Positions 209 through 5,497 of a stretch of DNA of 64,000 nt are shown here, one piece after another; the first letter of the stretch is position 1; every line of letters begins with the position of its first letter. Made by a program: the position numbers and the translations under genes. The DNA lies in assembly GCF_001542905.1 (NCBI RefSeq), contig NZ_LOAJ01000001.1, positions 2,356,001-2,420,000 of the forward strand. Direction: 5' to 3'. The DNA is from Halorubrum aethiopicum (GTDB taxonomy: Archaea; Halobacteriota; Halobacteria; Halobacteriales; Haloferacaceae). Under the pieces are notes generated by a model, which saw only the letters and a list, made by a program, of their open reading frames with translations, did no database searches and had not been told where the DNA came from.

Positions 209-1255
209 TCACTGCCCGATCCCGTTCGCGGAGATGATCCGCCGGACGCCGAGATACGCCACGGCCGCGAGCGTGGCGTAGACGGCGACGGTCAGCGTCG
301 TCGCCGGGTCGGCGCTGTCGATGGCGAGTCGCGCGACCGCGTTCGTCGGGCCGCCCGCCATCGCGGTCGCGCCGCCGAAGAGGACGAGCACGGCGACCGA
401 GTAGAGGAACTGGGCGGCCCGGCGGTCGGGCGCGGCCGCGGCGATCCCCGCGGCGACCCCGACGACCAGCGTCGTCAGCGCGGTCATGAGGAGGAGGATC
501 GTCGGGACGTTGGCGACCGACGTCCCGTTGAGTTCGAGGAGCAGGAGCCACAGCAGGGCCTGTCCGGGCGCGATCGCGACCGCCGCGAGCGCCTTCCCGT
601 CGACGATCTCGCCGATCGTCACGGGCGCGACCCGCAGCAGCTCGAGCGTCCCGCGATCCAACTCCTCCGTGATCGAGTCGACGACGAGCGACCCCGAGAT
701 GAACACGGGAAGGAACACCAACACCGGGATCAACACGGTGTAGGTGAACGTGAAGTACGGGCTGGAGCCGGTCGATTCGGGGACGGGGAGCGGCGGCCGG
801 GTCAGCGACTCCGCCCGCTCGACGCGCTCGATCCGCTCGTAGGTGCGCAACAGGTCCCGCAGCTGGACGACGATCACCGTGGTCTCGACGGTGGCGTCGG
901 GCGCGGTCACCGCGACCGATATCCGCCCCGAGTCCTCCCGCGTCGCTATCGCCACCGCGTCGACGGCGTTTCCGTCGAAGGCGTTCCGGGCGGCGGCGGC
1001 GTCCTCGTAGGGCGTCACCGACGCGCCGGGCACCTCCGCGGCGGCGCGTTCGAGGTCCGCGATCGCGTCGCCGGCGGCCGCGACCTCGACCTCCGCGCCG
1101 TCGAGCGCGCCGGGGTCGTACATCGAGACGAGCCCGACGACGAGGAACGACGAGAACGCGGCGATGAACAGCTGGATCGCGATCGCGAGCAGGATCGTCT
1201 TCTCCGCGCGGAGCCCGGCGATCTCGCGTCTCGCGACCGTGAGTCGGCTACCCAT
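209..1255 (-). CDS. ABC-2 type transporter permease
   Basis: A 348-residue membrane protein and the last gene of a three-gene minus-strand ABC exporter operon. It starts with a cytoplasmic segment (GSRLTVARREIAGLRAEK), has one membrane helix at about residues 20-44, a large extracytoplasmic domain to about 165, then roughly five further helices (VLIPVLVFLPVFISGSLVV onward). This is the usual layout of ABC-2/NatB-type permeases. Its start overlaps the end of the upstream permease-protease gene by 8 bp, which implies translational coupling. The substrate is unknown; NatA/NatB-like export or antimicrobial export are family possibilities only. Confidence 0.85.
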   Translation of the reverse strand: MGSRLTVARREIAGLRAEKTILLAIAIQLFIAAFSSFLVVGLVSMYDPGALDGAEVEVAAAGDAIADLERAAAEVPGASVTPYEDAAAARNAFDGNAVDAVAIATREDSGRISVAVTAPDATVETTVIVVQLRDLLRTYERIERVERAESLTRPPLPVPESTGSSPYFTFTYTVLIPVLVFLPVFISGSLVVDSITEELDRGTLELLRVAPVTIGEIVDGKALAAVAIAPGQALLWLLLLELNGTSVANVPTILLLMTALTTLVVGVAAGIAAAAPDRRAAQFLYSVAVLVLFGGATAMAGGPTNAVARLAIDSADPATTLTVAVYATLAAVAYLGVRRIISANGIGQ

Positions 1256-3293
1256 GGAGGCTCACCACCCCGAAGTTGTACGCGGCGTGGACCAGCGTTG
1301 CGGCCGCGAGCGCGAGGACGTACCTCGTCCGGTCCCGTCGCGCGCCGACCGCCGACAGCGACGCGGTGACGCCGTGGAGCGCGAGCGGCGCGAGGAAGAG
1401 CCCGGCGAGGAGGAGCGGCGAGAGCCCCGCCACGCCCGCGACGGAGCCGAAGGCGGCGCGGCCGACGTACAGCTCCGTGAGCCCGACCGCCTGGACCACC
1501 GCGGTCGCCTTCTCCGCGAGGAAGAAGCCGAGCCCGGAGGCGAGCCCGACCGCGAGCGCGACCCGGTCGGTCCGGGCGAAGACGCCGCGTTCGAACCCGG
1601 CGTAGAGGTGGACGCTCTTCGCGACCTCCTCGACGAACGCGATGACGACGAGCAGAACGGGGATCGAGACGGTGATCGGCAGCGCGAACAGCACCGCGAC
1701 CGCGAGCAGCTCCGCGACGAAGACGAACGGGATCGTACACGCGGTGAGGAACGCGACCGCGGCGGGCCCGCGGGCCCGTCTCGGGATCCGGGCCGCGACC
1801 CCCGTCGCCGGCGACTCGCGGACGCCCTCGCCGACCGCCGAGAGCCGGACCGCGAGCGCGTCGAGGAACTTGCGGGTCACCGGCTTCTGGGTGAACAGGT
1901 CCTCCTCGCGGTAGACGCCGAGCCCGAGCCCGAAGAGCAGGGCGGCGGCGACCGCGGTCGGCCCGGTCGCGAACAGGAACTCGCCGACCGAGATCGCCTC
2001 CCCCTGGAGGTCGAAGACGACGAGCGTGAGCGGCGAGATCAGCGCGACCGGCGTGACGTTCGTGAAGATCGCGGGCACGAACGCGTAGGAGGTGAGGAGG
2101 ACGCTCACCGCGACCGTGACGAAGGTGAGCTCCTTGAACGACCGCGCGAACACCGCGCCGACGAAGGTGGCGGCGAGGAACGTCGCCGCGATCGGGAGCA
2201 CCGCGAGCACGGAGACCGCGCCGCCGCCGACGACGAGCGCGATCAGCGCCGTCGCGGCGACCGCGACCGCGACGTACGGCAGCGTCTTGCCCGCGACGAT
2301 CTCGGCCGGCGACAGCGGCGTGACGAGCAGCGGCTCGCCCCGGCGGTTGGTCCGCTCCTCGAGCACCGACGAGCCGTACGCCTGCGCGAGGAAGTTCATC
2401 GGCACGAGGAACGCGAACGCCAACACGAGCGACGCGAACGGGAACGGCGGCGTGATCGATCCGGGCGATCCGGCGGTGGCCGCGCCGAACGCCCCGCCGC
2501 CGATCGAGGGGACGGCGAGGCCGCCGGAGCCGCCATCGTCGCCGAATGGCCACCGGCCGCCGGATTCGTCGCCGGCGTCGACTCCGCCGCCACCGCTCCC
2601 CTCTCCGCCGCCGTCTCCGCTTCCGCCGGCGTCATCGTCTCCGCCTCCACCGTCCGCGGGTTCGGCGTCGTCGCTTCCGCCCCCGACGCCGTCCGACGTT
2701 CCCCCGGCGCTCCCGTCGCCCCCCGAACCCCCGCCGACCGTTGCCCCGTCCTCGAGCGCCGAGCCGCGGTTCGCGTACCGGAGCGTGACGACGACCGGGA
2801 ACGCGGCGGTCTCGTTTTCCTCCGCGGCCATCAGCCGCTCGTTGTGGGCGTCGACCGCCTCCCGGAACGACGCGGCGGCCGCCTCGCCCTTCGGCGTGTC
2901 GACCGCGCGGACGAACACGCCAGCGGGATCGCCGGACGGGTCGGTCCCGCCGCCCCGTACCTCCCGAACGGTCAGGTCGACCGTCGATCCGAGCGTCGCC
3001 CGCTCGAGCGGCACGGCGGTCAGGGCGGGTTCGGCCTCGACTGCGTCCGCGTACGGCGACGCCGGGTCGACGCCCACCCGATACACGTCCCGGTCCACGT
3101 CGAGGCCCACCGTGTCGGTGGCGAGCCCCGCGCCGACGACGCCGCCGGCGACGACGAGGAGCGCGAGCGCGGCCAGCAGGGTTCGGCGGTCGACCCCGCC
3201 GGTCGCCCGCGACGCCTCCCACCTCGCGACCCGAGCGACGCGCCGGGATCGGCGCGCGAGCCGCCGGATCCGCCGGGCCGCCCGTCGGATCAC
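1248..3293 (-). CDS. ABC-2 permease fused to a PrsW-like intramembrane protease
   Basis: A 681-residue polytopic protein with two parts. Residues 1 to about 480 are an ABC-2 permease half: a helix at about 40-58, an extracytoplasmic domain, a Gly/Asp/Ser-rich low-complexity stretch at about 170-260, then several helices. The C-terminal part from about 505 carries the PrsW-type glutamic protease/CAAX-like signature: EEVAKS (about 555-560), FFLAEK (Glu about 594), a histidine in LALHG (about 640) and VHAAYN near the end. It overlaps the ATPase gene by 4 bp (ATGA-type junction) and the second permease by 8 bp. The fusion suggests that export and membrane proteolysis are linked, for example maturation of an exported peptide. 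That functional link is inference. Confidence 0.85.
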   Translation of the reverse strand: MIRRAARRIRRLARRSRRVARVARWEASRATGGVDRRTLLAALALLVVAGGVVGAGLATDTVGLDVDRDVYRVGVDPASPYADAVEAEPALTAVPLERATLGSTVDLTVREVRGGGTDPSGDPAGVFVRAVDTPKGEAAAASFREAVDAHNERLMAAEENETAAFPVVVTLRYANRGSALEDGATVGGGSGGDGSAGGTSDGVGGGSDDAEPADGGGGDDDAGGSGDGGGEGSGGGGVDAGDESGGRWPFGDDGGSGGLAVPSIGGGAFGAATAGSPGSITPPFPFASLVLAFAFLVPMNFLAQAYGSSVLEERTNRRGEPLLVTPLSPAEIVAGKTLPYVAVAVAATALIALVVGGGAVSVLAVLPIAATFLAATFVGAVFARSFKELTFVTVAVSVLLTSYAFVPAIFTNVTPVALISPLTLVVFDLQGEAISVGEFLFATGPTAVAAALLFGLGLGVYREEDLFTQKPVTRKFLDALAVRLSAVGEGVRESPATGVAARIPRRARGPAAVAFLTACTIPFVFVAELLAVAVLFALPITVSIPVLLVVIAFVEEVAKSVHLYAGFERGVFARTDRVALAVGLASGLGFFLAEKATAVVQAVGLTELYVGRAAFGSVAGVAGLSPLLLAGLFLAPLALHGVTASLSAVGARRDRTRYVLALAAATLVHAAYNFGVVSLHG

Positions 3294-4342
3294 TCGCCCC
3301 CCTCGCTCGTCGCCTTCGCCCGGTCGTCGCCGGCGCGGTTGCGGTCACCGGCGCGGTTGCGGTCGCCGCCTCCGTCCTCGCCGACCTCGACGCCCCCGTC
3401 CTCGCCGTCCTCGACGCCACCCCGACGGCCCGGCATCGGTCGCCCCACGAGGTCGAGGAACACGTCCTCGAGGCTCGGCTCTCTGGTGCGGATGTCCACG
3501 ACGGCCCCGCCGGCCGCCGAGACGGCCTCGCGCACCCGCTCGACCGCGTCCATCGACGGCACGACCGTGCGGTACCGGTCGCCGACTTCCTCGACGTCTC
3601 CGATCCCGTCCGCGTCGCCTTCGGTCTCCCCGGACTCCAGCCCCGGCGGCACGTCGGTGTAGACGTGGTAGGTCGTCTCGCCGTGTCGCTCGCGGATCTC
3701 CTCCACCGTGCCGCGGGCGACGATCCGCCCCTCGTTCATGATGACGACGCGGTCGCAGACGGACTCGACGTGATACAGGTTGTGCGCGGAGAAGACGACG
3801 GTCTTGCCCGCGGACCGGAGCTCGCGGGTGAACTCCAGCACCGAGTTCGTCGTCACCGGATCGAGCCCGGAGGCGGGCTCGTCGTACACCAGCACGTCGG
3901 GGTCGTTCACCAGCGACCGCGCGATGGCGACCTTCCGTTTCATCCCCTTCGAGACGTCGCCGAGCCGGCGGTCGCGGTGGTCAAGGTCCAGCCGGTCGAG
4001 CGCGCGGTCGATCCGCTCGTCGGCGACGGACCGGGGAACCTCGTAGAGGTCGGCGAAGAAGCGGAGGTACGACGTCGCCGTCATCTCCTCGTACAGCGGC
4101 GACTCCTCGGGGAGGAAGCCGAGGTGGTGCCGCATCGCCGGGTCGGTGGAGTCGTAGCCGGCGACGCGGGCCTCGCCCGAGGTGGGCTCGATCAGCCCGG
4201 CGAGGACCTTCAGCGTCGTCGTCTTGCCCGCCCCGTTCGGGCCGACGATCCCGAAGACCTCGCCCTCCTCGACGGAGAAGGTGCTGTCGACGACCGCCGC
4301 GAACCCGCCGTACGTCTTCTCGAGGGCGTCGACCGCGATCAT
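3290..4342 (-). CDS. ABC transporter ATP-binding protein
   Basis: A 350-residue ATPase and the first gene of the exporter operon. The Walker A motif GPNGAGKTTT lies near residue 35, the signature region reads VSKGMKRKVAIARSL, and Walker B reads VLVYDEPASGLDP, followed by the switch histidine in FSAHN. This matches the CcmA/NatA-type ATPases that pair with ABC-2 permeases. The C-terminal about 50 residues are a charged low-complexity tail encoded by small tandem duplications (GDRNRA twice, VEDGEDGG-like twice) just before the stop codon. The tail is not part of the ATPase fold. The stop overlaps the next gene's start. Confidence 0.92.
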   Translation of the reverse strand: MIAVDALEKTYGGFAAVVDSTFSVEEGEVFGIVGPNGAGKTTTLKVLAGLIEPTSGEARVAGYDSTDPAMRHHLGFLPEESPLYEEMTATSYLRFFADLYEVPRSVADERIDRALDRLDLDHRDRRLGDVSKGMKRKVAIARSLVNDPDVLVYDEPASGLDPVTTNSVLEFTRELRSAGKTVVFSAHNLYHVESVCDRVVIMNEGRIVARGTVEEIRERHGETTYHVYTDVPPGLESGETEGDADGIGDVEEVGDRYRTVVPSMDAVERVREAVSAAGGAVVDIRTREPSLEDVFLDLVGRPMPGRRGGVEDGEDGGVEVGEDGGGDRNRAGDRNRAGDDRAKATSEGGE

Positions 4343-4432: not shown

Positions 4433-5497
4433 TCAGTCGTCCGCCCAGGCGTCGCCGTGCGCGCGGTAGCCGTCGAACTCGCCACGGTCGATCTCCCGTT
4501 CGATCTCGCGTTTCGTCTCCCGGTCCAACCGGAGGAGGTGACAGAGCGGGTGGCCGGGGGCGGCGACCGGGTTCTCTAGAGCCCCGAGGATCAGCCCGTC
4601 GAAGGGCGCGCGGACGACGCGCTCCTCGGTCTTGAAGTGGTTCGTCACCGTACAGATCGGGTCGTCCTCGTGGACGAGCGGGTACGGCCCCCACTCCATC
4701 TCGACGAGTCCGCCGGCGTCCGCGCGGAGCCAGCGCTTGGTGGCGTCGGCGGCGGTCGACTGGTACCACCCCGGCCAGTGGACCGGTTCGTCGGGGAGGA
4801 GACCGTACTCGGCGAGCACGCTCTCGACGCCCTCCAGGGCCTTCTCGATCAGGGTGCGCTGGAAGCGGTGTGCCCGCCCCATCTCGACGGTGACCGTCGG
4901 GATCCCGTCTGCGGTCGCCACGGACCGCAGCGATCCCGCGTCGCCCTCGCCGTAGAGGACCACGTTGGTGGCGAACGCGCGGGCGAGCCGCGCCACGCCC
5001 GGGTCCTCGAGGTCGGCGCGGGCGTGGTAGATCGTCGTTCGGTTTCGCGTCGACGTGTGGAAGTCGAGCCCGAGGTCGCACGGCGAGACGAACCGGCGGT
5101 AGATCTCGTGGGCCATCCGCTCGGTCGTGTTCGCGCCCTCCCGACCGGGAAACGACCGGTTCATGTCCTGGTCGTAGATCGGCGTGTACCGCTGTTGGGC
5201 CTCGAAGGCGGGGACGTTACACGCGTGGAGACAGACGAGCGTTCCGTGGATCTCGCGCGGCTCGTATCGGTCGGCTATCTCCTGGACGACCTTGACGCCG
5301 TTGAGTTCGTCGCCGTGGATCCCGGCGCTGAAGAAGACGGTCGGACCGCCGCCCTCCCCGTTGATCACGGTGACGGGGATCCGGATCGGATCGCCCAGGT
5401 AGGTCTCGCCGACCTCGTAGCGGACGTGTCGCTTCTCGCCCGGATCGACCTCGGCGTCGTAGCGGAACGGTTCCGGATCGGCACGCGAGTCGTTCAT
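4433..5497 (-). CDS. succinylglutamate desuccinylase/aspartoacylase family deacylase
   Basis: A 354-residue zinc carboxypeptidase-like protein of the AstE/AspA family. The zinc site is visible as GIHGDELNG (His61, Glu64) and a later histidine in LDFHTSTRN (about His147). NRSFPGRE is the conserved arginine region that binds the substrate carboxylate. The C-terminal third (WLRADAGGLVEMEWGPYPLVHEDD and onward) is the small beta domain usual for the family. Haloarchaea carry several paralogues of unknown substrate, so true desuccinylase activity should not be assumed. It is monocistronic, about 90 bp upstream of the next minus-strand gene's start. Confidence 0.85.
   Translation of the reverse strand: MNDSRADPEPFRYDAEVDPGEKRHVRYEVGETYLGDPIRIPVTVINGEGGGPTVFFSAGIHGDELNGVKVVQEIADRYEPREIHGTLVCLHACNVPAFEAQQRYTPIYDQDMNRSFPGREGANTTERMAHEIYRRFVSPCDLGLDFHTSTRNRTTIYHARADLEDPGVARLARAFATNVVLYGEGDAGSLRSVATADGIPTVTVEMGRAHRFQRTLIEKALEGVESVLAEYGLLPDEPVHWPGWYQSTAADATKRWLRADAGGLVEMEWGPYPLVHEDDPICTVTNHFKTEERVVRAPFDGLILGALENPVAAPGHPLCHLLRLDRETKREIEREIDRGEFDGYRAHGDAWADD

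Follow-up and report, generated by a model that had tools for sequence, protein, structure and literature searches.

In the haloarchaeon Halorubrum aethiopicum a single gene encodes one half of an ABC-2 exporter with a PrsW-type glutamic intramembrane protease domain at its C-terminus, and uninterrupted orthologues of this fusion, with invariant active-site residues and with genes for an ABC ATPase and a second permease as conserved neighbours, are spread across the phylum Halobacteriota. The gene lies in a window of 64,000 nucleotides (the whole stretch of DNA analysed here; contig NZ_LOAJ01000001.1, positions 2,356,001 to 2,420,000). It represents an ancient archaeal variant of the plan in which a permease and an intramembrane protease share one polypeptide. 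No published description of a permease-PrsW fusion was found in the open-access literature, and a survey of archaeal fusions, which contains many ABC-2 fusions, does not mention PrsW (PMC11237513).

Results

The fusion protein (P0002) is read from the minus strand, from a GTG at 3293 to a stop at 1248, and is a single copy in its own genome. Its start codon shares 4 bases with the stop of the ATPase gene, and the ATG of the second permease lies inside its 3' end by 8 bases, an operon-like packing of the three genes (Table 1). The open reading frame and these overlaps bear out the initial annotation, which had named no strand but had placed a permease half and a C-terminal protease pattern in one polypeptide and had described an operon of one ATPase and two permeases. 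The ATPase (P0004) is intact, with Walker A (GPNGAGKT), an SKGMKRK signature, Walker B, the H-loop and a DrrA1-3 C-terminal domain. It was matched by the Pfam models ABC_tran (1.3e-30) and DrrA1-3_C (4.6e-11) as well as by the NCBIfam models drrA (1.7e-77) and GldA (8.1e-61), in the last two cases under their cut-offs. Both Pfam matches of the second permease (P0003), to PF12698 (1.9e-11) and PF12679 (4.9e-11), exceed the cut-off. The ATPase gene is immediately preceded, on its own strand, by a gene for an AstE/AspA-type deacylase (4433-5497, minus), the nearest model for which is DoeB, under its cut-off; the same neighbour is found in several Halorubrum relatives and in Halobellus captivus, and not elsewhere. 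Just 3' of the second permease, within positions 1-180 of the window, there are inverted repeats capable of forming hairpins (e.g. CGCCGGCGCTTTGCGCCGGC and GCGAGAGCTTCGCTCTCGC), possibly a terminator or a repeat element.

Table 1. Genes and protein features of the exporter-protease module, in coordinates of the window.
Feature	Position	Strand	Basis
ABC ATPase of the exporter, P0004, 350 aa, DrrA/GldA-like	3290-4342	-	Pfam, NCBIfam, sequence
Fusion gene, ABC-2 permease half and PrsW-type protease domain, P0002, 681 aa	1248-3293	-	ORF, orthologues, AlphaFold
Permease half, residues 1-470: TM1, extracytoplasmic loop 62-296, TM2-TM6	1884-3293	-	PF12698, NosY/ABCA4
Disordered G/S/D-rich insert in extracytoplasmic loop, residues 178-279	2457-2762	-	pLDDT < 50, composition
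Conserved cytoplasmic linker, residues 462-504	1782-1910	-	Invariant A2 columns
PrsW-type intramembrane protease domain, residues 505-681	1251-1781	-	PF13367 in relatives, model, APH-1
EExxK motif, E555/E556/K559	1617-1631	-	Invariant in A2 and A6
FxxxEK motif, F590/E594/K595	1509-1526	-	E594 and K595 invariant in A2 and A6
First motif histidine, H640	1374-1376	-	Invariant in A2 and A6
HxxxN motif, H669/N673	1275-1289	-	H669 invariant, N673 over 90% (A2, A6)
Second ABC-2 permease, P0003, 348 aa, predicted partner half without protease domain	209-1255	-	Pfam, adjacency

The permease half of P0002 matched Pfam PF12698 (ABC2_membrane_3) with 1.1e-6, just below the cut-off. An AlphaFold model of the whole protein, built with an alignment of 60 sequences (A2), has a pLDDT of 78.7 and a pTM of 0.70, and is of low confidence only at the insert 178-279 and in a short loop near 610-621. 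Residues 17-467 of this model superpose on NosY of the NosDFY complex (7znq_y; Z 15.8, 3.7 Å, 211 residues), other structural matches being ABCA4 (Z 14.4) and a mycobacterial efflux pump. Judged by the model, the N-terminal half, in which the ABC-2 permease part spans W25/E26 to TM6, has six TM helices in a NosY/ABCA-like fold and so constitutes one half of a type V-like ABC-2 exporter; the cognate ATPase and the second permease are co-encoded with it in the window and in relatives. The charge pattern of the loops (positive-inside) fits 11 TM helices with the N-terminus inside and the C-terminus outside, in agreement with the model. In the linker between the two halves the residues EED-FTQK (463-470), K475 and D478 are invariant in A2, while among the most distant family members the linker is less conserved. 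With such unusual conservation this segment is a possible coupling element between permease and protease.

A Foldseek search with the whole protein gave weak matches only, and these covered the permease part and not the C-terminus; the C-terminal domain (residues 490-681) was therefore folded alone with 59 sequences, which gave a pLDDT of 89.1 and a pTM of 0.84. The best solved structure for the domain was APH-1 of gamma-secretase (Z 11.4, 4.8 Å, 166 residues), further matches being APH-1B (10.8 and 10.6), TMEM147 of the BOS complex (10.1) and the Abi/CPBP-type protein SpdC (5.7), and these Z-scores, which are near the level common among helical bundles and might by themselves reflect no more than a widespread arrangement of helices, play only a supporting role in assigning the CPBP/PrsW/APH-1 fold. 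No relative was found when solved structures were searched by sequence with alignments A2 and A3. Nor did the last 200 residues of P0002 match any Pfam family, even at E = 1. Its orthologues, however, did: of the 31 C-terminal domains aligned from the family, 11 matched PF13367 (PrsW), with a best E of 6.7e-9, and orthologues of P0002 pass the cut-off of this model with up to 38.6 bits against 23.5 (G022:C3:178598-179104). Profile comparison paired the domain with standalone haloarchaeal PrsW at probabilities of 90.4% and 89.5%, with the motifs in register, whereas archaeal CPBP proteins gave 2.7%. EExxK, FxxxE, H and HxxxN stand on successive TM helices, and their roles correspond to those given for PrsW, whose last two helices contribute a histidine and HxxxD/N, respectively, in addition to EExxK (PMC4602095). 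According to these sequence comparisons the domain belongs to the PrsW family and not to CPBP, and the fold result agrees with that, since APH-1, PrsW and CPBP form a recognised superfamily (PMC6588880; PMC4602095). 

In P0002 the motif set follows the cytoplasmic linker and consists of E555-E556-x-x-K559, F590-x-x-x-E594, H640 and H669-x-x-x-N673. Searched with a regular expression for the ordered motifs, the protein gave one match, whereas 200,000 shuffled versions of the domain gave none. Residues E555, E556, K559, S560, G589, F590, F591, E594, K595, H640 and H669 are invariant throughout A2. In an alignment of 31 diverse domains (A6), which reach down to 23% identity with the window copy, the only invariant columns left are E555, E556, K559, E594, K595, P636, H640 and H669; six of these eight (E555, E556, K559, E594, H640, H669) constitute the predicted catalytic set, unchanged even among domains that are about 25-35% identical. 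Individual inspection found EExxK kept in 20 of 20 further members, and EE, K, E, H and H in all 19 full-length distant members. In the model the motif residues occupy positions 15-20 of helices 26-29 residues long, that is, a common mid-membrane level of four helices. With the catalytic set invariant in an otherwise widely diverging domain, sequence conservation argues for a catalytically active domain, a predicted working protease. The EExxK, FxxxE and two-histidine pattern was thus read correctly at the outset, and the structure prediction then suggested as a check places its residues at one level of the membrane in a confident model; in the label "PrsW/CPBP-type" the first name holds and the second has to be dropped. 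One locus (L203, 4981-5487, minus) contains a remnant of the protease domain beside a homologue of the second permease; the permease half and the last histidine are missing, and the remnant is probably a decayed copy.

A profile of 60 proteins detected the full-length fusion in 148 of 295 genomes sampled from the whole phylum (62 of 107 genera), and in most cases a single unbroken frame spans both halves. Within the class Halobacteria a match was found in 214 of 292 genomes and in 57 of 77 genera. Scanning a genome collection with single-sequence patterns gave nearly full-length relatives down to 27-31% identity in Halorubrum, Halovivax, Halarchaeum, Methanolobus, Candidatus Methanoperedens and other Methanosarcinales. 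About half of the phylum genomes and a quarter of the class genomes lack the fusion, so that its task is not essential everywhere. The second permease follows it in nearly all loci with enough flank, and the ATPase is usually beside it, upstream on the same strand in Halobacteria and divergent in most other families. Among 72,556 plasmid records only one, from Haladaptatus, carries the module, with the fusion annotated as "ABC transporter permease subunit"; the module is widespread and mostly chromosomal.

Neighbouring genes were clustered for 30 loci, mostly from Halobacteria, and again for 29 loci across the phylum. In both samples no conserved neighbour was found beyond the ATPase and the second permease, and only lineage-specific genes recurred. 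Neither a precursor, immunity or cargo gene (among ORFs of at least 40-50 aa) nor a regulator or anti-regulator gene is conserved near the module in these loci. A library of defence systems gave no match to the fusion or to the second permease, and its matches to the ATPase look like generic P-loop similarity. In Methanosarcinaceae a gene for a BatD/DUF11-like surface protein with a signal peptide and a C-terminal TM helix lies directly 3' of the second permease (19 loci in all, including L092 8867-10699 and L058 8921-10756) and is followed by two small membrane proteins. This protein is a candidate partner or substrate in Methanosarcinaceae; as a general substrate it was rejected, being absent beside the module in other families. 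In Methanolobus and relatives a gene for an MscS-type mechanosensitive channel stands between the divergent ATPase and fusion genes (L058 5046-5852, L072 5006-5920), and it too is absent beside the module in other families.

The nearest named kind is the bacterial NCBIfam family NF041647 ("ABC transporter permease subunit/CPBP intramembrane protease"), which has the same plan of an ABC-2 half and a C-terminal glutamic-type protease. There, however, the protease part is CPBP with an EExxxR motif, whereas that of the fusion is PrsW with EExxK; P0002 reaches 10.7 bits where the cut-off is 435, and no genome in a set of 148 from the phylum passes it. Score, motif and the 2.7% profile probability rule out membership in CPBP and NF041647, and P0002 is to be classed with the ABC-2 exporters and with the PrsW family. 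With PrsW itself (PF13367, MEROPS M82; PrsW of B. subtilis, haloarchaeal HVO_0408) the fusion has in common EExxK, FxxxE, the histidine of the next helix and HxxxN of the last one. Unlike standalone PrsW, its domain sits at the C-terminus of an ABC permease, the N-terminal PrsW helices being absent or replaced by the permease, FxxxEK stands for FxxxEN, GPGH is not present, and the window copy is too diverged to match the Pfam PrsW model. The genome of H. aethiopicum also contains one standalone PrsW gene (G000:C1:875873-876445, L105) with canonical EExxK, GFxxxEN, GPGH and HAxYN. ABC-2 exporters of the NosY/NosDFY, ABCA, GldAFG and DrrAB types are like the fusion in permease fold (Z 14-16), DrrA and GldA resemble the ATPase of the module, and GldF weakly resembles the second permease, but we know of no protease domain in any of them. 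Peptidase-containing ABC transporters (C39, PCAT) likewise unite a protease and an exporter in one polypeptide and are alike in principle, though there a type IV exporter bears at its N-terminus a soluble cysteine protease, unrelated to the one here, and the fusion is not a member of this group. APH-1 and TMEM147, the best solved structures for the domain, are scaffold subunits without a complete EExxK/H/H site and are not known to be proteases.

Discussion

The likeliest working model, to which we assign slightly less than half of our belief, is an ATP-driven exporter or extractor whose substrate, a hydrophobic polypeptide, is passed on to the PrsW domain of the complex itself. The two permease halves would pair as a heterodimer served by the ATPase, and one of them ends in the glutamic intramembrane protease, which would share the membrane with the exporter. 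An ATP-driven cycle would pull a hydrophobic, membrane-inserted polypeptide from the bilayer, such as a lipid-anchored peptide, a TM segment or a signal segment, and offer it to the protease in the middle of the membrane; cleavage would in this way be coupled with extraction or export. Catalytic activity, the heterodimer, the coupling of ATP hydrolysis with proteolysis and the substrate class are our proposals. Many ABC-2 exporters transport lipids or small molecules, and for this reason the transported substance might be something other than a polypeptide. The task is probably cell-envelope housekeeping with substrates encoded elsewhere in the genome, as no conserved cargo gene neighbours the module.

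That an assembly error could have fused two separate proteins, or that the motifs could have arisen by chance in a hydrophobic tail, might be suspected from the failure of the window copy to match Pfam PrsW; this has a negligible probability and is refuted by uninterrupted orthologous frames in well over 100 genomes, with the parts kept joined in both the phylum and the class survey, by the invariance in A2 and A6 and by the shuffles. The domain may alternatively be an enzymatically dead scaffold of the permease, like APH-1 in gamma-secretase. Its best structural matches point that way, but a scaffold free of catalysis would be expected to lose some of the residues EE, K, E, H and H, which are invariant phylum-wide while the rest diverges, and we consider this reading quite improbable. 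Rather unlikely, though less so, is that the ABC module senses envelope stress or a membrane-active peptide and that its cycle activates PrsW for a site-1 cut in a membrane-anchored regulator. In B. subtilis, PrsW makes the site-1 cut in the anti-sigma factor RsiW when the cell responds to antimicrobial peptides (PMC4602095, PMC9263693), and site-2 protease homologues are present in haloarchaea (PMC9263693). The lack of a neighbouring cargo gene is consistent with signalling as well; on the other hand, no conserved regulator or anti-regulator adjoins the module, and PF13367 was matched in 39 of 39 Halobacteria genomes, nearly always by a strong non-fusion gene that could fill this role.

The initial annotation had proposed an exporter with a built-in intramembrane protease that could process its own cargo or act in peptide immunity. 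Its first part stands, the fusion being genuine and the catalytic residues conserved. The module could still be dedicated to export and maturation of, or self-immunity to, a bacteriocin-like peptide, by analogy with CPBP immunity proteins and with ABC exporters that have a C39 peptidase: exporters containing a peptidase are of similar architecture, and DrrA-like ATPases occur in resistance as well as in export systems. We find this improbable. The search for small precursor-peptide genes near homologues, recommended at that stage, revealed none conserved among the ORFs considered, no defence family matches the fusion or its partner permease, and the module is broad, mostly chromosomal and single-copy here, unlike patchy bacteriocin loci. 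Based on the neighbour, plasmid and defence results, a general envelope task fits better than a peptide-immunity cassette.

To our knowledge, ATP-driven delivery of substrate has not been described for intramembrane proteases of the PrsW/CPBP/APH-1 class. A phylum-wide ABC machine that extracts membrane proteins and feeds them to a protease of the same subunit would be an undescribed ATP-powered type, possibly a missing processor of lipid-anchored or C-terminally tagged surface proteins, although we hold this as a doubtful suggestion. To judge from the one annotated record, a conserved class of proteins is hidden under the label "ABC transporter permease subunit", and a permease-PrsW polypeptide with an intact site makes the coupling of transport and proteolysis testable in tractable hosts, Halobacteria and Methanosarcina-like archaea.
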